Source: a virus
IMG/VR virus record: IMGVR_UViG_3300017706_001457
Location: 1 to 46,022 of that record
Length of the DNA: 46,022 nucleotides
Direction: 5' to 3' (one strand)
The notes beneath the pieces were generated by a model. The model was not told the origin of the DNA and made no database searches. It saw nothing but the letters and a program-made list of their open reading frames with translations. Numbering within the stretch: the first letter of the stretch is position 1; each line of letters begins with the position of its first letter. Shown piece by piece: positions 21,273 to 36,565 of this stretch. The position numbers were made by a program, and so were the translations under genes.

Positions 21273-23051
21273 TTATGCTGGGAAAGTAGCTCCAGTTGGT
21301 AAAATGTTGAAATCTAGGTAAATAAATTCTGCTGTTTTAGTTGGTTGTAAATAAACAGCACCAATTAACTCATTTCTATCAATTACATCTGGTGTGTTAT
21401 TTGAATTGTCCATTACTACTTTAAAAGCATATAAACCTTGTCTTTGTTGTACTGATTCTAAGTAAGGATTAACTTGACTTAAGAATGTATTTCTAGTTGC
21501 TGCTGTATTTTGTTCAAATACTAATGTGTCAGCGATTTGAGAAATATAATTTTTAAGTGTAATTAATAATCTTCTTACATTTACTCTATCTAAAGCTGAA
21601 GCTTTTGTTTGAAGTGTTTTTTGTCCAAATACTACAATTCCAGTTCCTGGGAATGTTGCAATTGGGTTAACTTTTGCTTGATATAAAGTATCTCTATTAG
21701 CATTAGTTAATTTTCTTTCTGCTTGTCTTACAGCTCCTAATCCTCCTCTATTAATACCTGCTGGTGCAAACCAAGGTTCTCCTGCTCTATCATTATATGC
21801 ATAAACTCCTGGAATCATTGTAGAAGCACATACCCAAACTAATTGTCTTGAATCTGGATCTGAAACCATTAACCAAGGCCAATATGTAGCTACATACGAT
21901 GAATCAACAGACGCTGCTGTTGAACCAACCTGTGTAATTGATGAATTATAATTAGATAAATCACCTACAAATATTGCATCACCTCTAGTTTCACAATTAG
22001 ATTGAATTGATGTCCAACCTGCTCCTGTTGAAGCATTATCTAATATTAATCCTGGTGCAGTAATTACATTATATCTAAATTCATCTCTATTTGCTAATAA
22101 ATTAATTGCATCTGTATAATCTGAACCATCTAAACCTTGTTGGTTTGTATTATTTATAGCATCATAATAGTTTTGAGGTTTTTGTGGTGTATCACCTGCA
22201 TTTATAAATCCAACACCTCCAGTTGCACTACCAAATGATCCTGATCCTGCTGCTGGTATTGATGCTGTAAATTCATTTCTTGCATTACCATCATTATCTA
22301 AATAGTTTGGAGTTTGTAGTCCAACTTCTTTTACTCTAACGAATCTTGAAGCATTAGGGAATGAACCTGTTGTTTGTAAATATGGATCAGATGTTCCTGC
22401 TCCTCTTAATACTTGTGTTTGATCACCAATTACTCTAGCTATATAATTTGTAGCTAATGGGTCTAATGATACATTTGGATAAGTTTCAATTACTTGTTTT
22501 GAAGAATTAGTATCATTACCTTGTCTAATTAATACACTAAACGTTCCTGAAGATGTATTTGGAGTTGTTATTTCCCATCTATAATTATCTGCTGAACCTG
22601 ATCCTAAAGTTCCATTAGTTCCAGAAGGTGCTGAAGCATCTCCTAAACCACTATTATAAATAGCACCATCTCCAATTGTTTCTAAAATAAATGGAGAGGT
22701 TCTATCAGCAGCAGCAGCATTTCTATCTGATCCTGTTATTATATAAGATGAAGTTGCAGGTGAAACTGATGCTGAAGTAACTCTAGTTACTAACAACGTA
22801 CTTCCTCCATTTTGAAAATAGTTATATGCCGATATTGATGTAAAATAAGTGTATTCATTTGATCCACTCAAAAATGTACTACCAAAACTAGCTAAATACT
22901 CTGAATAACTTGTTATTAATTTTGGTATTTCATTTTGACCCTTTACTGTAGGACCAATAATTGCAGCTCCTGCTTGAACAGGACCTGCTGTAATTTGTGA
23001 CTGGTCGTTTTCTCTTGCTAAAACACCCGGTGATATTAATACTTCTGCCAT
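21273..23051 (-). CDS. 18: Tail sheath protein (T4 gp18-like)
   Basis: This 592-aa protein begins with the sheath signature ISPGVLARENDQSQITAGPV and AAIIGPTVKG. The middle is Ser/Thr/Asn-rich, likely the exposed insertion domain. The C-terminal third has the highly conserved sheath core: GTGIVVFGQKTLQTKASALD, VNVRRLLITLKNYISQ, FEQNTAATRNTFLSQVNPYL, DNSNNTPDVIDRNELIGAVY, and FIYLDFNILPTGATF. It forms the contractile sheath around the gp19 tube. T4 gp18 is 659 aa. A late motif lies 19 bases upstream of the ATG. Confidence 0.95.
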   Translation of the reverse strand: MAEVLISPGVLARENDQSQITAGPVQAGAAIIGPTVKGQNEIPKLITSYSEYLASFGSTFLSGSNEYTYFTSISAYNYFQNGGSTLLVTRVTSASVSPATSSYIITGSDRNAAAADRTSPFILETIGDGAIYNSGLGDASAPSGTNGTLGSGSADNYRWEITTPNTSSGTFSVLIRQGNDTNSSKQVIETYPNVSLDPLATNYIARVIGDQTQVLRGAGTSDPYLQTTGSFPNASRFVRVKEVGLQTPNYLDNDGNARNEFTASIPAAGSGSFGSATGGVGFINAGDTPQKPQNYYDAINNTNQQGLDGSDYTDAINLLANRDEFRYNVITAPGLILDNASTGAGWTSIQSNCETRGDAIFVGDLSNYNSSITQVGSTAASVDSSYVATYWPWLMVSDPDSRQLVWVCASTMIPGVYAYNDRAGEPWFAPAGINRGGLGAVRQAERKLTNANRDTLYQAKVNPIATFPGTGIVVFGQKTLQTKASALDRVNVRRLLITLKNYISQIADTLVFEQNTAATRNTFLSQVNPYLESVQQRQGLYAFKVVMDNSNNTPDVIDRNELIGAVYLQPTKTAEFIYLDFNILPTGATFPA

Positions 23052-24966: not shown

Positions 24967-26124
24967 TTATCCTATATAAATTGGGTAAGGTACTGCTGAT
25001 AGTTCAACTAAAGTTGCATTTGTTTCATCAGCTCTTCTTTCCATTAGTGCTTTTTTAGATGTTTCATCAAAATATTCTCTTAATCTTGCAATTTGTGCTT
25101 CTTTTTCAGATGTTGCTGCTGATAGTAAATCTGCTTGATTTAGTTGTGTTTCAGCTCCTGGTATAGGTACTTGTGTATATTTACCTCTAATATATCCTAA
25201 CATTTCTTTACATAAAGATAAAGTATAATCAAATATCCAACTTCTACCAATAGAATTTATTTCATTATAATTAGGGTTTCTAAAGTTTACATTTGAAACA
25301 TTAGTTACAACAAATGATCCTGATGGTGTCTTTGAAATAGGTGAATTTCTTTCAGACATTTTAATATATTGAATTTGTAATTTACCTGAATTTCTTGGGA
25401 TAGGGAATATTCTTAAATTATTATTAATTAATTCAAATGAGTATTGAGATTTTCTAATTTGATCGTTTAATTCTATAGCTTGTATTTTTTGTAAGTCAAA
25501 ACTAATAGGCATTAACATAAAATTAATTGCTGGTGAGTAATTTCCCCACCCAAATGTATCCATCATATTCATCATACCAGTTCCAGTACCAGCATAAGGG
25601 TCAAAGAATTTTACAATGGCAGGAGGTGGCTCATAAAATACTCTTTTAACTTCAATTGAATCTCCTTCTATTAATGATGCTGATGATGAAGCCCAAGATT
25701 TTAAATCATAATCTTGCTGGTTAGCAACTAAAGTTATTGATCCTGAGTACCATGTTGTATTTCCTCCTGTTCCTGCTTCTTCTCCATATTGTTCAGTATA
25801 TCTTACAACACTAGCAAAATTAGGTGTAATTAATTCATGATTTAAATTTGATGAAGTTAATGAACCTTCAATTGATAAATAATTATCTCTTACTTTAAAG
25901 GCATACAATTCATTACCATAAGTAGTTACTGCTTCTTCAAATGCAGTATAAAAATTTAAATCTTGTAATTCAACATCCATTATAGGATAACCTAATCTTC
26001 TTGCACAATATGTTACTACTCTATCAGCATCAGTTTGAAAATCAACTTGTTGATCATAAAATCCAAAAGGTGTGTCTCCAGGAAAAAAGGATGATGAGCC
26101 AGGATAAATAGGAATTACAGCCAT
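24967..26124 (-). CDS. 13: Neck protein (T4 gp13-like)
   Basis: This 385-aa protein has an N-terminal RRLGYPIMDVELQDLNFYTA and FEEAVTTYGNELYAFKVRDN pattern expected of gp13-type head-completion proteins, then beta-rich middle sections (GSITLVANQQDYDLKSW, ELINNNLRIFPIPRNSGKLQ, IQYIKMSERNSPI) and a helical C-terminus with a degradable-looking AATSEKEAQIARLREYFDET. It is the first gene of the neck cluster, with a late motif only 12 bases upstream. T4 gp13 is 309 aa. Confidence 0.65.
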   Translation of the reverse strand: MAVIPIYPGSSSFFPGDTPFGFYDQQVDFQTDADRVVTYCARRLGYPIMDVELQDLNFYTAFEEAVTTYGNELYAFKVRDNYLSIEGSLTSSNLNHELITPNFASVVRYTEQYGEEAGTGGNTTWYSGSITLVANQQDYDLKSWASSSASLIEGDSIEVKRVFYEPPPAIVKFFDPYAGTGTGMMNMMDTFGWGNYSPAINFMLMPISFDLQKIQAIELNDQIRKSQYSFELINNNLRIFPIPRNSGKLQIQYIKMSERNSPISKTPSGSFVVTNVSNVNFRNPNYNEINSIGRSWIFDYTLSLCKEMLGYIRGKYTQVPIPGAETQLNQADLLSAATSEKEAQIARLREYFDETSKKALMERRADETNATLVELSAVPYPIYIG

Positions 26125-26160: not shown

Positions 26161-26721
26161 TTAATCGACAGTGATTTTAATACAATAATAATCTTTTCTA
26201 GTAAAATATTTATGTTTCATTTTTTTAACTGGAGGGTTAACATTTATTTTAGTAAGAGTTAGGTTATCATTTTTAAAATTGTGCTCTGTTATATGTTTAA
26301 AATCTGGATTGTAGTATGTTATTATTCCTTTAGGTTTTAAGTAATTTTTAGCTATAGGTATAAAACTATAATAGTTTTTATCTTCCCACGTATCATGCAT
26401 TATTCCATCATATTTTTTATTTTTAGGAATACTATTAAACCAATCACCTTTTATAGGTATTACATTAGGTTTATCTTTAGCCCATTTTAATAATCGCTCA
26501 AAAACTTGATCATGTATTTCAATTATAGTATGAGTATTAATATTAGCTTGTTGTATAAAATTAGAACATATACCCATTCCAAATCCTATTTCTAATATAT
26601 CACCTTTATTTTCTGTTACAATTTTAGCATGTTCTTTCATAATAGGAACCTCCCAATCCATCATTACTTCTTGATTTTTTTCATCTAAAATTTTATCCTT
26701 TAAAAAAGTATACATTAACAA
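26161..26721 (-). CDS. SAM-dependent methyltransferase related to guanidinoacetate N-methyltransferase (GAMT/RMT2 family)
   Basis: This 186-aa Rossmann-fold methyltransferase shows motif I as DILEIGFGMGI (41-51), the acidic end of strand 2 as TIIEIHDQVFERL (65-77), and DGIMHDTWED (105-114). The stretch VMMDWEVPIMKEHA (19-32) matches the GAMT segment VMERWETPYM, and Glu24 and Asp110 fall at the positions of GAMT Glu45 and Asp134, the residues known to hold the guanidino group. The C-terminal part is shorter than human GAMT (236 aa). The substrate is thus likely a guanidino compound (guanidinoacetate, arginine or an arginine side chain). It overlaps the 576-aa tail gene by 7 bases and precedes the neck genes, an odd place for an enzyme. 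Confidence 0.8.
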   Translation of the reverse strand: MLMYTFLKDKILDEKNQEVMMDWEVPIMKEHAKIVTENKGDILEIGFGMGICSNFIQQANINTHTIIEIHDQVFERLLKWAKDKPNVIPIKGDWFNSIPKNKKYDGIMHDTWEDKNYYSFIPIAKNYLKPKGIITYYNPDFKHITEHNFKNDNLTLTKINVNPPVKKMKHKYFTRKDYYCIKITVD

Positions 26722-28445
26722 CTAGCGTAATTTGATACTCTTCCTTCACCACTAATTTGTAAAGAGAAAAAACTTCTACCAGAACCTAGTTTATAAAAGC
26801 TATTAGCCCCACCAAAAGGTTGCTCAAAAGTATCAGTTCGAAATAATACCATTCCGCTAACTGCAGTTGAAGAAGGAGAATATAACGTTATTGAATGGGC
26901 TGTAGTTATTTCTGCACAAGCATCTGCAGCACTACTAATTCCTTCTAAATCTTCATTATATGCATAAATTGTATAAGTGGTTGGACTTGGTAATGTATTA
27001 GCAATTTCATTAGTCATTATCATGTTTGCTTCATCTTTATCACTTGCATCTGTATCTTGATAACCTTGAACTGGTACATTACATACAAAAAAATCACCAG
27101 CATTTGCTGATGTTCCCGTTCCTGAGCCATTTCCAAAATAAGCTGAAGATAAAAATGGTGCTGTTGTATTATTACCACTAAAAGGCTGAGAATCTTGATA
27201 AACACCACTTGAATTAAATCTCATTATTACATCACCATAACTAGGATAGGCTTGAGCAGATCCAGACCAACCTGGTTTTACAAAAGCATTCCAAGCTGCA
27301 CCTCCCCCTGATACACAAATCCTACCCATAGCTGTGTATGCAGTAAATGATGTCATTTCTGTTCCATTACCATCACCTTGTGATTCTGCTGCCATTAAAG
27401 TTGCTGGTCCTCCTTCACCCATAGTTACACTTCCATTATACACAACAGATGCCGCTCCACTAAAATAATTTCCTCCTGTTATTGTGGCAACACCATCAGA
27501 AGTAAAAGTATTTCCATTACCGTCTCCTAAAGTGCCTATGATTGTTACATTTTGATTTTCAACATCTCTACCACTAATAGTATCACCACCACCTACGTCT
27601 GTTCTAGCACATACAGCATTATTTACTGAAAAAGTATGGCCATTTGAAGAATACCAACCATATAAATTTTGATATGTCATAGGATACATCATAACAATGT
27701 CAGACGATGGATAATCTCCACGAACACAGGTAGTTAAACCACTTGTTAAAATATAATAATTTCCTTGAGTAGCTGTTGGTCCATATGAAGCATAAGATCC
27801 CCCAGTTATAGTTCCTGATGCTACTGAAGTCATAGAGGTAACATTTGCATCAGATGTAGATGTGTATAATATAACATATGAAGTACTATTAGAAGGATCT
27901 AAATTAAAAATGTGAAAAGTTATAGTTCGTCTGTCTATTCTTGTAGCAAACACATAACCCATATAACCCCCATATGCTCCTTGAGTACCTGGGTTTGTAT
28001 TATGGTAAAAAACAAAAGGTTTATCACTAGATATTCTATCTCCTACTACTAATGAATTTAATGATAAAGTACCTCGTGCTGAAGTAATTGTTCCTGCTGA
28101 TGAACCATTTTTATAAATTGTAGTAGTACCGGATTGAAAACTTCTAGCTACATAATTTCCATTGTAACTACAAAAATGTGTATTACTATTAGCATCAACT
28201 CCTAAAACATTTTTAAGAGTTCTAGAATGACCTGTAGCTAAATTATTTGCAGAATAAGAATTATCTAAACCCCAAAAATCATTTAAATCATAATTTCCAG
28301 TTACAGCAATACCTGGAAGAGCAGCTCCTGCTCCTATTATATTACAAACTTCTTCTAAATTAAAACTATCTTCAGGAACATTTCCTGAACCTGTTGTTAA
28401 TATATGAGCAGACACTGAAGCTGAATATAATGAAGTTGAAGACAT
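26715..28445 (-). CDS. Putative tail or receptor-binding protein
   Basis: This 576-aa protein is rich in Ser, Thr, Gly, Asn and Tyr, with a beta-strand character (SSDKPFVFYHNTNPGTQGAY, GGYMGYVFATRIDRRTITFH) and Gly/Asp-rich turns (TIIGTLGDGNGNTFTSDG). It carries six Cys residues and ends VSNYASC. No signal peptide or enzymatic motif. It follows the 1460-aa fibre gene by 2 bases and was presumably made with it, so it may be the distal adhesin or a fibre-associated virion protein. The family is not recognised. Confidence 0.6.
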   Translation of the reverse strand: MSSTSLYSASVSAHILTTGSGNVPEDSFNLEEVCNIIGAGAALPGIAVTGNYDLNDFWGLDNSYSANNLATGHSRTLKNVLGVDANSNTHFCSYNGNYVARSFQSGTTTIYKNGSSAGTITSARGTLSLNSLVVGDRISSDKPFVFYHNTNPGTQGAYGGYMGYVFATRIDRRTITFHIFNLDPSNSTSYVILYTSTSDANVTSMTSVASGTITGGSYASYGPTATQGNYYILTSGLTTCVRGDYPSSDIVMMYPMTYQNLYGWYSSNGHTFSVNNAVCARTDVGGGDTISGRDVENQNVTIIGTLGDGNGNTFTSDGVATITGGNYFSGAASVVYNGSVTMGEGGPATLMAAESQGDGNGTEMTSFTAYTAMGRICVSGGGAAWNAFVKPGWSGSAQAYPSYGDVIMRFNSSGVYQDSQPFSGNNTTAPFLSSAYFGNGSGTGTSANAGDFFVCNVPVQGYQDTDASDKDEANMIMTNEIANTLPSPTTYTIYAYNEDLEGISSAADACAEITTAHSITLYSPSSTAVSGMVLFRTDTFEQPFGGANSFYKLGSGRSFFSLQISGEGRVSNYASC

Positions 28446-28447
28446 AC

Positions 28448-31400
28448 TTATTTTTTCTTTAATTCATCAACTTCGGCTTTTAGTTCTTTAACAGCTTCAA
28501 TTAATACAGCTACTAATTTATCGTATTTAACCGCCTTATAACCATTAGCTCTAGTTGTAACTAATTCTGGAAATACTGATTCTATTTCTTGTGCTATAAC
28601 ACCTATATCTGATCCTTCATTAGCATGTATAGCTTTTGTTTTATTAGCTTCAAATTCTAACCAATCAAATTTAATACCATTCATCATTATTACTTTATCT
28701 AAGGCATTTGGTATATTTATAATATTTGTTTTTAATCTTCTATCTGATGTCGCAAATGCTATAACATCATTTTCAGCTTGAATCAAACCATCAGTTGTTG
28801 ATGAAGTTCCTAATGCTAATCCTACATTTAATTGTTCAACATTTAATAATCCAGAAGTATCTTGAAATTTCATATCATTTGATCCTCCTGCTGTACCTCC
28901 ATCATTGTATAAAACTTGAGTATTTGAACCCCCTACTGGACCTGTTGTACCTGTTATACCTTGGATACCTTGTGAACCTGTACTACCTGTACCTGTTGTA
29001 CCTTGAACACCTTGTGTACCTGTAGTTCCTTGTGAACCTGTAGAACCTCCTCCACCTGTAGCACCTTGAGTACCTGTTGTACCTTGTGAACCTGTTCCTC
29101 CTGCTCCTCCTGTTGTACCTTGGATACCTTGTGAACCTGTTCCTCCTGCTCCTCCTGTTGTACCTTGGATACCTTGTGAACCTGTACTACCTGTACCTGT
29201 TGTACCTTGAACACCTTGTGAACCTACTCCTCCATCATCACCTACAGTACCTTGAGTACCTTGAGTACCTGTAGTTCCTTGTGTTCCTTGTGTTCCTGTA
29301 CCACCTGTTGATCCATTATTACCAGCTACACCCTGTTTACCTTGTTTACCTTGAACACCTTGTTTACCTTGTTTACCTTGAACACCTTGTCTACCTTGAA
29401 CACCTTGTACACCTACAGGAATAAACATTATAACTACTGCTTTTCCATCAGCTGGTAAGGCACCATCAGCTCCATCTACTGTATAAGCAACTTGGTTACT
29501 TGCAGTTGATCCTATTTCCTGAATATTAAATCTACAATATATAGTCATATCAGTTGCACCCGTAATTATTAAAGACCCATGATTGTTAGTTTGACCATAA
29601 TCATCAAAAGTTTCTAAATAATCACCTACATTATTACCATTAGCATCTACGTCATTTATGTATACTACTGAAACACTACCTAATGATGCTTCATTAAAGG
29701 CAATTCCACCTGATATTGCACTACTTTGAGCTCCACCTTTAAATGAAAATTCAATTCCTCCTTTATCACCTGTTGTACCTGTTACACCTTGAATACCTTG
29801 AGTACCTGTAGTTCCTTGTGCACCTGTTCCTCCATTATTTCCATTTGTACCTTGAATACCTTGAGTACCTGTAGTTCCTTGTGCACCTGTTCCTCCTGTT
29901 CCCCCAGGATCACCTGTTATTCCTTGAATACCTTGTGTACCTGTAGTTCCTTGTACACCTGTACCTGTTACACCTTGAATACCTTGTGAACCTGTAGATC
30001 CATTTGAACCTGCTGCACCTTGTTTACCTTGAATACCTTGAGTACCTGTAGTTCCTTGTGCACCTGTACCTCCATCTCCACCTGTTATACCTTGAATACC
30101 TTGTGAACCTGTTCCTCCTGTTCCACCTGTTGTACCTGTTGTACCTTGAGTACCAGTTATACCTTGTGTACCTTGAGTACCTGTAGCTCCTTGTTTACCT
30201 TGAATACCTTGTGTACCTGTAGTTCCTTGTTTACCCTGTGCACCTTGAATACCTTGAATACCTTGAGTACCTGTTATACCTTGAATACCTTGAGAACCCG
30301 TTCCTCCAGTAGTACCTGTTGTTCCTTGTTTACCTTGAACACCTTGTGAACCTGTATTTCCAGTAGTACCTGTAGCACCTTGTGTACCTTGTGAACCTGT
30401 TCCTCCTGTTCCACCTGTTGTTCCTTGTTTACCTTGAATACCTTGTGTTCCTTGTTTACCTTGAACACCTTGAGTTCCTGTAGTTCCTTGTCTACCTTGT
30501 ATACCTTGTGTACCTGTTGTTCCTTGTTTACCTTGGGTACCTTGAGTACCTGTATCTCCTTTATCACCTGTAGTTACAAATGATACTATTACTTCTTCAC
30601 CATTACTAAATGGAGCTACTGCTGATGACGCTTGTGAAGCAATATTAATTATCCACCATCCTGTTTGATCTTCAAGATCTGATATTGAAAATAGTATAAA
30701 TTGAGCTGCATCATCTTTGTTAGATATTCTAACATGACCTTTTACAGCAGATGTAACAGCATCTATTGAGGTCATAAATGATGAAATGTCATTTCCATTT
30801 TCATCTAAATCATCAATATACATATTACCTGCTGAAGCTTGAGTTGCTGATGATAATCTAACATCTCCTGCTCCTGGATCTGATGAAGCAGTTGATGTAT
30901 CAAAAGTATAAAAGAAAGTAGCACCACCAAAATTTCCATCTGTTCCTTGTGTACCTAATGTACCTTGTGTTCCTTGAGTTCCTTGTGAACCTGTAGTACC
31001 TTGAGTACCTGTTGTACCTTGAGTACCTGTAGTTCCTTGTTTACCTTGTGTACCTTGTGAACCTGTTCCTCCTGTTGTTCCTTGTTTACCTTGAACACCT
31101 TGTGAACCTGTATTTCCAGTAGTACCTGTAGTACCTTGTGTACCTTGTGAACCTGTTCCACCAGTATTACCTGTTGTACCTTGTATTCCTTGAATACCTT
31201 GTGCACCTGTTGTTCCTTGAATACCTTGTGTACCTGTAGTTCCTTGTGAACCTGTTGTACCTGTTCCTCCTTGTTTACCTTGTACACCTTGTGTACCTGT
31301 AGTTCCTTGAACACCTTGTGTACCTGTATTACCTGTTGTACCTGTTGTACCTTGAGTACCTGTAGTTCCTTGTTTACCTTGTGTACCTTGTGAACCTGTT

Positions 31401-32830
31401 CCTCCTGTTCCACCTGTTGTTCCTTGTTTACCTTGAACACCTTGTACACCTTGTGAACCTGTTCCTCCTGTGTCTCCTGTTATACCTTGTACACCTTGTG
31501 AACCTGTTCCTCCTGTAATTCCTTGAATACCTTGAGTACCTGTAGCACCTTGTGTTCCTTGTGAACCTGTTGTACCTGTTCCTCCTTGTTTACCTTGTAC
31601 ACCTTGTGTACCTGTTGTTCCTTGTTTACCTTGAGTACCTTGAGTACCTGTTGTACCTTGAATACCTTGTATACCTTGTGAACCTGTTGTACCTGTTCCT
31701 CCTTGTTTACCTTGTACACCTTGTGTACCTGTAGTTCCTTGTTTACCTTGAACACCTTGTACACCTTGAACACCAGTTGGTATAAATTCTAAAACACATA
31801 TTTCTCCTGCAGATGGTAAAACCCCAGTTATGTAAGATAAATCAACAGTAAACCAACCTGTATTGTTAGTTACACTTCCTTCAACAGTAAATATTGCATA
31901 AGTATCATCATCATTAGTGTTAGACTTAATAACTAATGTACCTCTATTACTAGATATACCTAAATCATCCCAAGTTAAAATATAATTTCCAACATTAGCC
32001 CCATCATCTGTAGTTTGATTTATGTAAAGTTCGGTAACTGATCCTATTGTACCATTATTTAACCTAAAGTCTCCTGAACCTGGATTTGCTGCTGAAGTAT
32101 TTGCTTCAAACCCATACAATAGTCCACCTTTATCTCCTTGTGTACCTTGAATACCTTGAGTACCTTGAATACCTTGAATACCTTGTGAACCTGTTCCTCC
32201 TGTAGTCCCTTGTTTACCTTGTACACCTTGAGTTCCTGTTGTTCCTTGTTTACCTTGAGTACCTTGAGTACCTGTTGTACCTTGAATACCCTGTATACCT
32301 TGTGAACCTGTTGTACCTGTTCCTCCTTGTTTACCTTGTACACCTTGTGTACCTGTTGTTCCTTGTACACCTTGTGTACCTGTAGTTCCTTGTGTTCCTT
32401 GTGAACCTGTTGTACCTGTTCCTCCTTGTTTACCTTGAGTACCTTGAGTTCCTGTTGTTCCTTGTTTACCTTGAGTACCTTGAGTACCTGTTCCTCCAGT
32501 ATCACCTGTTATACCTTGAATACCTTGAGAACCTGTTGTACCTGTTGCCCCTTGTTTACCTTGAACACCCTGAATACCTTGTGTTCCTGTAGTTCCTTGA
32601 ATACCTTGTGCACCTGTAGCTCCTTGTTTACCTTGTACACCTTGTGTACCTGTAGCTCCTTGTATACCTTGGACTCCTTGTAATGATAAATCAGTTCTGT
32701 ATTTTAAAGCCCCACCATTATTAACAACAACAATTTTGCTTTCACTAGATCCCTCGGGAATACCAGATCCTGTTATTTGATTTAGAATAGCGTTTGATCC
32801 GCTAACTATTACTTTTTTCCAATTTGGCAT
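28448..32830 (-). CDS. Giant collagen-like tail fibre with C-terminal S74 (endosialidase-type) chaperone
   Basis: This 1460-aa protein starts MPNWKKVIVSGS, shared with the 630-aa fibre. Long Gly-X-Y collagen-like runs (GTQGIQGTTG-type, about 51-235, 351-630, 756-1020 and 1139-1296) alternate with three related globular domains (about 236-350, 630-755, 1021-1138; each begins GG, then a YxF-type strand, and includes an LYIN/MYID-like segment). The last 99 residues form a peptidase S74 intramolecular chaperone: SDRRLKTNI (Ser1362, Lys1367), FDWLEF, GVIAQEIESVFPELV, YDKLVAVLIEAVKEL. That domain trimerises the fibre and cuts itself off before Ser1362 in known members. The product is probably a long trimeric collagen-like fibre for host recognition. 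Confidence 0.85.
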   Translation of the reverse strand: MPNWKKVIVSGSNAILNQITGSGIPEGSSESKIVVVNNGGALKYRTDLSLQGVQGIQGATGTQGVQGKQGATGAQGIQGTTGTQGIQGVQGKQGATGTTGSQGIQGITGDTGGTGTQGTQGKQGTTGTQGTQGKQGGTGTTGSQGTQGTTGTQGVQGTTGTQGVQGKQGGTGTTGSQGIQGIQGTTGTQGTQGKQGTTGTQGVQGKQGTTGGTGSQGIQGIQGTQGIQGTQGDKGGLLYGFEANTSAANPGSGDFRLNNGTIGSVTELYINQTTDDGANVGNYILTWDDLGISSNRGTLVIKSNTNDDDTYAIFTVEGSVTNNTGWFTVDLSYITGVLPSAGEICVLEFIPTGVQGVQGVQGKQGTTGTQGVQGKQGGTGTTGSQGIQGIQGTTGTQGTQGKQGTTGTQGVQGKQGGTGTTGSQGTQGATGTQGIQGITGGTGSQGVQGITGDTGGTGSQGVQGVQGKQGTTGGTGGTGSQGTQGKQGTTGTQGTTGTTGNTGTQGVQGTTGTQGVQGKQGGTGTTGSQGTTGTQGIQGTTGAQGIQGIQGTTGNTGGTGSQGTQGTTGTTGNTGSQGVQGKQGTTGGTGSQGTQGKQGTTGTQGTTGTQGTTGSQGTQGTQGTLGTQGTDGNFGGATFFYTFDTSTASSDPGAGDVRLSSATQASAGNMYIDDLDENGNDISSFMTSIDAVTSAVKGHVRISNKDDAAQFILFSISDLEDQTGWWIINIASQASSAVAPFSNGEEVIVSFVTTGDKGDTGTQGTQGKQGTTGTQGIQGRQGTTGTQGVQGKQGTQGIQGKQGTTGGTGGTGSQGTQGATGTTGNTGSQGVQGKQGTTGTTGGTGSQGIQGITGTQGIQGIQGAQGKQGTTGTQGIQGKQGATGTQGTQGITGTQGTTGTTGGTGGTGSQGIQGITGGDGGTGAQGTTGTQGIQGKQGAAGSNGSTGSQGIQGVTGTGVQGTTGTQGIQGITGDPGGTGGTGAQGTTGTQGIQGTNGNNGGTGAQGTTGTQGIQGVTGTTGDKGGIEFSFKGGAQSSAISGGIAFNEASLGSVSVVYINDVDANGNNVGDYLETFDDYGQTNNHGSLIITGATDMTIYCRFNIQEIGSTASNQVAYTVDGADGALPADGKAVVIMFIPVGVQGVQGRQGVQGKQGKQGVQGKQGKQGVAGNNGSTGGTGTQGTQGTTGTQGTQGTVGDDGGVGSQGVQGTTGTGSTGSQGIQGTTGGAGGTGSQGIQGTTGGAGGTGSQGTTGTQGATGGGGSTGSQGTTGTQGVQGTTGTGSTGSQGIQGITGTTGPVGGSNTQVLYNDGGTAGGSNDMKFQDTSGLLNVEQLNVGLALGTSSTTDGLIQAENDVIAFATSDRRLKTNIINIPNALDKVIMMNGIKFDWLEFEANKTKAIHANEGSDIGVIAQEIESVFPELVTTRANGYKAVKYDKLVAVLIEAVKELKAEVDELKKK
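28940..32690 (-). repeat. Collagen-repeat DNA, four blocks
   Basis: About 2.6 kb of this span encodes Gly-X-Y triplets from near-identical 9- to 36-base units (on the plus strand, permutations of accttgtgtacctgtagtt). The three globular domains interrupt it near 31784-32125, 30568-30950 and 29416-29770. Such sequence is prone to slippage and recombination, so repeat number may vary between isolates. Confidence 0.85.
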
Positions 32831-35257: not shown

Positions 35258-36565
35258 TTATTCTAACCCCATATAAAAGTTAGATGAAGAATAAACTAAT
35301 CCTCCTGTTACTGCTGTTGGTAAAGTATCTAATGATCCAAATCTTAATACTCCATCACCATTTATACGTAATTTTTCATTTTGACCATTACCATCGTTTA
35401 TTTCTATTAAAAATGGAGTTTCATTAGCTGAAGAAGTAATTAAAAGTGTTCCTGATGAAGTAATATTACCCCCAAAATCAAAACTAACACCATTAGCTAC
35501 TGTAACTGTTGAAGATGAAAATATAACAGAATCTCCTCCTATTATTAAAGGACTATTACCATTTAAATATGAAAATGAACCTGTAGAACCTGATATATGT
35601 CCACTTGCACTTATATTTGTAGTTTTTAAAGTTGAAGTAGATGGGTTAAATGAAAGATCAAGAAGTGTTGGATCCTGACCCATTGATGCTGCTGTTCCAC
35701 TACCACCTCCTTGAGAAATAACAAATGGTAATCTATAATTAGCATCATTATCATCATCTGTAACTACAATTGTAGCACCTCCTACACCAGGAACACCAGT
35801 TGCACCTTGTATACCTTGAGCACCTGTAGTACCTTGAACACCAGTATCACCTTTATCACCTGTTACTTGAAATGAACATATTATATCATCTCCATTTCCA
35901 AATGGGTTTGATGCTGAAGATGCTTCAGCTGTAATGGTTAATATATACCAAGTGTTTGCATCTTGTCCTGCTACTGTTGTTATTTGATACAACACAAAAT
36001 CATCAGTATTTCCTTTTTCTGATACTCTAACATGACCCTTTATTGTTGATGTAGCATTAGATATAGTAGTCATAAATGATACTATACTATTACCTGCATC
36101 ATCTGTTGCATCTATATATAAAGCAGTTGCTGTGTTTTGAGTTGCATTATTTAATTGAACAATACCAGTTCCAGGATCTGCTGGTGGTGCAGGTACTGTT
36201 ATACTAAAAGTATAATCAAATGAAGCACCTCCAAAATTACCAACTGTACCTTGTGTACCTGTAGCTCCTTGAGTACCTGTAGCTCCTTGAGTACCTGTAC
36301 CTGTTATACCTTGAATACCTTGTGTACCAAGAATTCCTTGAATTCCTTGTACACCTGTTATTCCTTGGATTCCTTGTGTTCCTACACCAGTAATACCTTG
36401 TATACCTTGTAAACCTTGTATTCCTTGTAAACCTTGAGTACCCGTTATACCTTGAATACCTTGAGCACCTGTTCTTCCTGGGGAATTTACTTGTACTACA
36501 GAAGTTTTTTCAGAGGTTATTACAACTTGATTAGTGGTAGGATTTATTTTTATTTGATCAGACAT
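35258..36565 (-). CDS. Collagen-like fibre or adhesion protein with one globular insert
   Basis: This 435-aa protein has a short head (MSDQIKINPTTNQVVITSEK), a collagen-like Gly-X-Y run (about 30-105), one globular domain (about 106-235: GGASFDYTF, then QLNNATQNTATALYIDATDD, then DDIICSFQVTGDKGDTG) that is clearly related to the three globular domains of the giant fibre, a second short collagen run, and a beta-rich C-terminus (about 270-435) ending SNFYMGLE. It may be a side fibre or whisker-like protein built from the same modules. It starts 8 bases after the 138-aa gene. Confidence 0.75.
   Translation of the reverse strand: MSDQIKINPTTNQVVITSEKTSVVQVNSPGRTGAQGIQGITGTQGLQGIQGLQGIQGITGVGTQGIQGITGVQGIQGILGTQGIQGITGTGTQGATGTQGATGTQGTVGNFGGASFDYTFSITVPAPPADPGTGIVQLNNATQNTATALYIDATDDAGNSIVSFMTTISNATSTIKGHVRVSEKGNTDDFVLYQITTVAGQDANTWYILTITAEASSASNPFGNGDDIICSFQVTGDKGDTGVQGTTGAQGIQGATGVPGVGGATIVVTDDDNDANYRLPFVISQGGGSGTAASMGQDPTLLDLSFNPSTSTLKTTNISASGHISGSTGSFSYLNGNSPLIIGGDSVIFSSSTVTVANGVSFDFGGNITSSGTLLITSSANETPFLIEINDGNGQNEKLRINGDGVLRFGSLDTLPTAVTGGLVYSSSNFYMGLE

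Follow-up and report, generated by a model that had tools for sequence, protein, structure and literature searches.

In this work we analysed a 46,022-nucleotide stretch of viral DNA (the window, by which we mean the whole stretch), which encodes a methyltransferase with the fold of guanidinoacetate methyltransferase (GAMT). Across the loci examined, the gene for this enzyme almost always lies beside phage tail-fibre genes. Judging from sequence and modelled structure, this putative SAM-dependent guanidino N-methyltransferase is probably a protein-arginine methyltransferase dedicated to the receptor-binding proteins of the phage itself. Its fold, a conserved acidic pair, the fibre linkage, the translational overlap and three kinds of glycine-flanked arginines in neighbouring proteins make this the simplest account. 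The features of the window that concern the proposal, all on the minus strand, are the following:

26161..26715, minus strand: GAMT-like methyltransferase, 184 aa from the probable ATG (186 aa, extending to 26721, if the start is TTG)
26715..28445, minus strand: fibre/adhesin-like protein of 576 aa, directly upstream of the methyltransferase, candidate substrate; weak C-terminal PHROG match of unknown function
26775..26777, minus strand: codon of fibre Arg557 (GSG-R-SFF), an invariant column and the proposed methylation site
28448..32830, minus strand: collagen-like GXX tail-fibre protein of 1460 aa; PHROG tail fiber protein, E 4.4e-145
24967..26124, minus strand: neck / head-tail adaptor-like gene; PHROG "head-tail adaptor Ad2", phrog_211, E 5.1e-10
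21273..23051, minus strand: tail sheath, 52% identical to the sheath of Flavobacterium phage immuto

The collagen-like gene is the next one upstream of the 576-aa fibre gene, and both form one fibre locus. Collagen-like/tail-fibre PHROG matches are present at 28448-32830 and at 35258-36565 (1460 and 435 aa, respectively). By tail sheath, immuto is the nearest isolate, with a similar gene order and no methyltransferase; as far as sequence can tell, the window is placed among the immuto-like contractile-tailed phages.

The reading frame at 26161-26721 described in the first-pass annotation is real; it is on the minus strand and has 186 aa from a TTG. Its relatives begin with MYTFL, so the start in the window is probably the ATG at 26715-26713. 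This ATG and the fibre stop codon have one base in common within a TAATG; the true overlap with the upstream gene is therefore probably one base, and the 7-base overlap originally described would stem from the upstream TTG. It should be noted that residue numbers change accordingly: Glu24 and Asp110, counted from the TTG, are Glu22 and Asp108 from the ATG. Both motifs reported for the protein, WEVPIM and EIGFGMGI, are present, and no specific family for it was found in Pfam, PHROGs or NCBIfam.

The assignment to the GAMT-like enzymes, and the sequence and structure comparison with GAMT that the first-pass annotation had proposed for checking it, gave a clear outcome, with GAMT well above the other matches listed. 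GAMT was the first PDB match of the window protein (phmmer with one sequence, E 1.2e-21), and a profile of the viral proteins matched GAMT with E 9.4e-29, the next protein being at 2.3e-5. The AlphaFold2 model of the window enzyme has a mean pLDDT of 93.7; in Foldseek, five GAMT chains were on top (E 4.9e-15) and the first non-GAMT match had E 1.7e-8. By VIA-align, the model superposed on GAMT with Z 23.6 over 182 residues at 2.0 A, followed by the spermidine synthases as the next family (Z 15.8). The likeness to GAMT (1xcj, 3orh) covers the whole-length fold (Z 23.0-23.6, rmsd 2.0 over 182 residues, 31-32% identity), the equivalents of Glu45 and Asp134, and the motifs VM..WE..M and E-GFGM; in contrast to GAMT, the viral enzyme lacks the first ~20 residues and is encoded beside phage fibre genes.

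Glu45 of GAMT is taken here to hold the guanidino group. Counted along the phmmer alignment, Glu24 corresponds to residue 45 of 1xcj and Asp110 to residue 134, in agreement with the guanidino-site role that had been assigned to them. Asp110 is kept in 166/166 distinct viral copies and Glu24 in 164/166; in the two copies L096 and L097 a Gly replaces Glu24, and these may be inactive or have altered specificity. Asp134 is the proton acceptor in GAMT, according to the parts available of PMC12471008 and PMC12842229. The fold and the conserved guanidino-site residues make the enzyme class well supported, and the substrate of the window enzyme would accordingly carry a guanidino group.

Two protein-arginine enzymes come into consideration for comparison. 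Yeast Rmt2 is a GAMT-like protein arginine delta-N methyltransferase, and the substrate type that we propose would fit it; it differs in having an extra N-terminal domain, and it is likened here by description alone. Rmt2 was absent from the matches listed in the PDB sequence searches. The class I PRMT fold comprises a beta-barrel and a double-E loop; no PRMT chain was seen in the 50 fold-search matches listed, an absence that carries no weight as a test.

Three scans of IMG/VR returned 475, 526 and 449 matching stretches encoding a relative (the scans overlap), and 80 loci were retained from each. In total, 244 loci were examined, all with the methyltransferase gene. Their 400-nt cores come in 166 distinct versions, and grouping at 80% identity gave 76 clusters. 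Ten loci carry two copies in tandem (L207, L208, L209, L211, L213, L214, L215, L216, L218 and L228); in related loci, the same cluster also has a GNAT-like protein and a 2OG-Fe(II) oxygenase, so that it looks like a protein-modification island. Among INPHARED phage records, a full-length relative was found only in one uncultured 634-kb phage (LR745206), where it lies 15 bases after a fibre-like 762-aa protein (L031:12001-12519); this record also has genes on the opposite strand that look ligase-like by inspection. Two hits in genome contigs (L028 and L029) were discarded, as their reading frames encode no methyltransferase, and bacterial relatives are thus barely sampled, being represented by one Streptomyces plasmid protein.

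The gene upstream of the methyltransferase was classified in the 76 clusters as fibre type B in 34, type A in 16, window-like (type D) in 6 and type C in 6, the remaining ones being other genes in 13 and unreadable in 1. Among these 13, the upstream gene of L247 ends like the window fibre, those of L031, L080 and L098 appear structural on inspection, and in L058 and L083 the methyltransferase follows a replication-like gene; in the rest, the enzyme is clustered with a GNAT-like protein, a 2OG-Fe(II) oxygenase or another copy of itself. The type A and B domains match the "tail fiber protein" of Caulobacter phage S2B and of immuto. Elsewhere in these loci, such a domain occurs in 2 of 478 ORFs, a contrast that is partly circular since the profiles were built from the upstream proteins.

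Linkage evidence without this circularity comes from the reverse searches, in which the neighbour was used as bait. With the window-type fibre, the methyltransferase was the next gene in 17/17 loci. With the type A domain (n=80), the enzyme was next in 41 loci and absent in 34, with 5 too short; with type B (n=80), the figures were 29, 49 and 2, respectively. In several type A loci without the enzyme (L290, L297-L300, L304, L306 and L317), the fibre is often followed by a family of ~180 aa, mostly with a MATVNL start, which may serve as an adhesin module of another kind.

Genes are known to be exchanged at fibre loci, and the methyltransferase could be a passenger in a variable, gene-rich region with no specific tie to the fibre. 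The absence of the gene from 83 of 153 informative fibre-domain loci (34/75 of type A and 49/78 of type B) is in line with this. However, a same-strand gene ends within -45 to +60 nt of the methyltransferase in 160 of 166 distinct copies, so that its place immediately 3' of that gene is fixed and often overlapping (the commonest junction, in 51 copies, is a 1-base overlap), and the upstream gene is mostly a fibre, in unrelated phages. We regard a mere passenger as highly improbable.

The gene on the other side is not constant. It may be a neck gene, an 85-92-aa protein together with the sheath, a glycosyltransferase-like gene (Pfam) or a ~225-aa protein, and fibre and methyltransferase stay paired across loci despite this change. 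Large genes directly after the methyltransferase are found in L020 (6611-8710; Pfam Glyco_transf_9 and Glycos_transf_1) and in L080 (6541-8529; glycosyltransferase-like by look, from similarity at its start). The placement between tail and neck genes given by the first-pass annotation is thus correct for the window, with the neck gene at 24967-26124 and a fibre-like gene upstream, but does not hold as a rule, given that the downstream gene varies and the upstream fibre is what is constant. The late, virion-linked role that had been suggested for the enzyme is well supported.

A GAMT homologue in a phage, the subject of the first-pass annotation, is not new, having already been described in ocean phages. 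The available part of a 2024 ocean survey based on Tara Oceans (PMC11360552) reports viral GAMT (K00542) in nine Arctic virus populations, 85.4-fold enriched over microbial homologs and the most virus-enriched, and interprets it as creatine biosynthesis. Through the K00542 assignment, that viral GAMT very probably belongs to the same family as the window enzyme; as far as the survey could be consulted, the differences are its nine Arctic populations and creatine reading, compared with the hundreds of matching, fibre-linked stretches found here. The BFVD entry A0A8D9CBY1 (Foldseek E 4.7e-18, 34% identity), named "putative guanidinoacetate methyltransferase, uncultured marine phage", very probably belongs to this family too.

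According to such an interpretation, the enzyme would be a true GAMT and its gene an auxiliary metabolic gene, making creatine from guanidinoacetate and buffering ATP in the infected cell. Among solved structures, GAMT is indeed the nearest match in both sequence and fold, and the K00542 assignment and enrichment of the ocean copies, as given in the part available of PMC11360552, point in the same direction. Nevertheless, amidinotransferase PF02274 was found in 0 of 22 viral records with the gene (3 of 14 genomes in the control), these records being fragments whose host could supply that enzyme. Furthermore, in the GAMT literature, as far as available, a flexible section formed by residues 1-42 covers the active site, and the Trp20Ser change loses activity. 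Residue 1 of the viral model aligns with GAMT residue 21 or 22, no N-terminal section with the equivalent of Trp20 was found, and about half of the covering section is therefore missing. Creatine synthesis also leaves unexplained the linkage to tail fibres and the arginine that tracks with the gene, described below. We consider it very unlikely.

The available part of a study of Cellulophaga phages (PMC13288928) describes Lys and Arg methylation of structural proteins, including a putative tail fiber; there, in contrast to the present case, the authors know of no methyltransferase encoded by any of the phages and infer host enzymes. In the open-licence literature, outside which most subscription papers lie, we found no paper tying a phage methyltransferase to an arginine of the tail fibre.

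Candidate target arginines were found in the neighbours of several types. In type C (27 distinct cores), the upstream protein, of 95-208 aa, ends in a glycine-rich stretch and a final Arg in 26/26 readable loci, in forms such as GGGGPGR, GGGGGGR and SGGGR. Only 2 of 977 other genes have such an end, and both are the type C gene itself, missed because of an over-long start call. The mixed glycine codons of these tails argue against an artefact of a ribosome-binding site. No relatives of type C were found among isolate phages. In the window type, a hand-picked set of 14 diverse upstream proteins has five invariant alignment columns, Arg557 being one of them, and a Gly precedes this position in 12/14. 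We found no enzyme-less relative of this fibre, and for that reason the support for Arg557 is its invariance alone. For types A and B, the fibre domain upstream was rejected as a substrate; it has no shared Gly-Arg, and in type A it lacks an invariant arginine.

The protein of ~225 aa mentioned above comes directly after the enzyme in types A and B. Its model (pLDDT 84.8) is similar to two CBMs, of which one binds alginate (7vbo, E 2.5e-6) and the other chondroitin sulfate (8wab). In this model, Arg53 (L041 numbering) is located in a turn (52-56) between two strands. We compared 137 different proteins of this kind, 109 with the enzyme and 25 alignable without it, setting aside L374, L378 and L398, which gave no alignment at Arg63; enzyme-less proteins of ~650-720 aa with such a C-terminal domain were excluded from both the loop counts and the tree. 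Any Arg 6-13 residues before Arg63 was considered a loop Arg. This definition replaced a count by alignment column, which had found an Arg in 8 of the 25 enzyme-less proteins and had overlooked others where a shortened loop was gapped in the alignment.

The loop Arg was present in 109/109 proteins with the enzyme versus 19/25 without it, and an Arg-Gly in the loop in 98/109 versus 8/25. In clusters at 60% identity, the loop Arg was found in 66/66 with the enzyme versus 7/12 without (Fisher p 3.8e-5), while every protein, with or without the enzyme, has the strand Arg63. In a tree from which the loop columns were left out, there are 9 changes of state for the enzyme and 4 for the Arg; the latter are all losses and lie on enzyme-less lineages, which account for 10.4% of the tree length. 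Phylogenetically independent pairs gave 2-3 informative comparisons, all in the same direction and none opposite, too few for the sign test to be significant. The clearest case is L294, an enzyme-less sister of L041 (L295 is nearly identical), in which ARGGG has become VKGGG, with a Lys at the site and GGG kept, and the fibre stop directly overlaps the start of the CBM-like protein.

On the other hand, the site is kept without the enzyme in L308, L393, L394, L413, L417, L420 and others. A search without a positive control found no methyltransferase elsewhere in 24 enzyme-less records. The Arg kept in so many of these loci means either that it has another use or that the loss of the enzyme is recent. 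This retention leaves room for a different explanation, in which the adjacent virion protein would be methylated at another residue or group and the conserved arginine would be structural or bind a ligand. Basic residues of CBMs could bind anionic sugars directly, and the resemblance of the ~225-aa protein to alginate- and chondroitin-sulfate-binding CBMs fits with that. We nonetheless find this explanation unlikely: the loop Arg varies with the enzyme and the strand Arg63 does not, glycine-flanked arginines are common to three unrelated types of neighbour, and the acidic pair of the enzyme is conserved.

Alternatively, the enzyme could methylate another small guanidino compound, such as arginine, agmatine or a guanidino sugar, for decoration of the virion or the surface. 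The Streptomyces plasmid relative, the only one examined, lies amid genes of small-molecule arginine chemistry, and the glycosyltransferase-like genes after the enzyme in L020 (Pfam) and L080 (by look only) would also agree with such a role. The conserved Gly-Arg sites of the neighbours and the C-terminal GGGR tails are, however, left unexplained, and we judge a small substrate distinctly unlikely. The Streptomyces relative itself (L032:5944-6579) is distant and adjoins genes for a 2-ketoarginine methyltransferase and a beta-methylarginine aminotransferase; it perhaps adds a further methyl group to a natural product derived from arginine.

Returning to protein-arginine methylation, the course of events may be proposed as follows. 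The methyltransferase would be made from the same late unit as the fibre, with a start codon that overlaps the fibre stop or lies next to it. It would then methylate one exposed, glycine-flanked arginine of the adjacent adhesin. Depending on the group, the exact target would be fibre Arg557 near the C-terminal tip, the C-terminal Gly-rich-Arg tail or the RG turn of the CBM-like protein. In catalysis, Glu22 and Asp108 would hold the guanidinium and the Asp would take the proton as a guanidinium nitrogen receives the methyl group. The methyl mark might alter the binding of the tip to anionic surface polysaccharide. The residues are named here so that they can be tested.

We lean towards regarding this as a widespread marine-phage system, with hundreds of viral contigs, that has until now been interpreted as creatine metabolism. 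The enzyme would then be the first protein-arginine methyltransferase encoded by a phage for which a target site is predicted. If the proposal is true, "GAMT" would no longer count among the viral metabolic genes of the ocean, and phages would methylate an adhesin arginine with an enzyme of their own, adding a post-translational step to host recognition.
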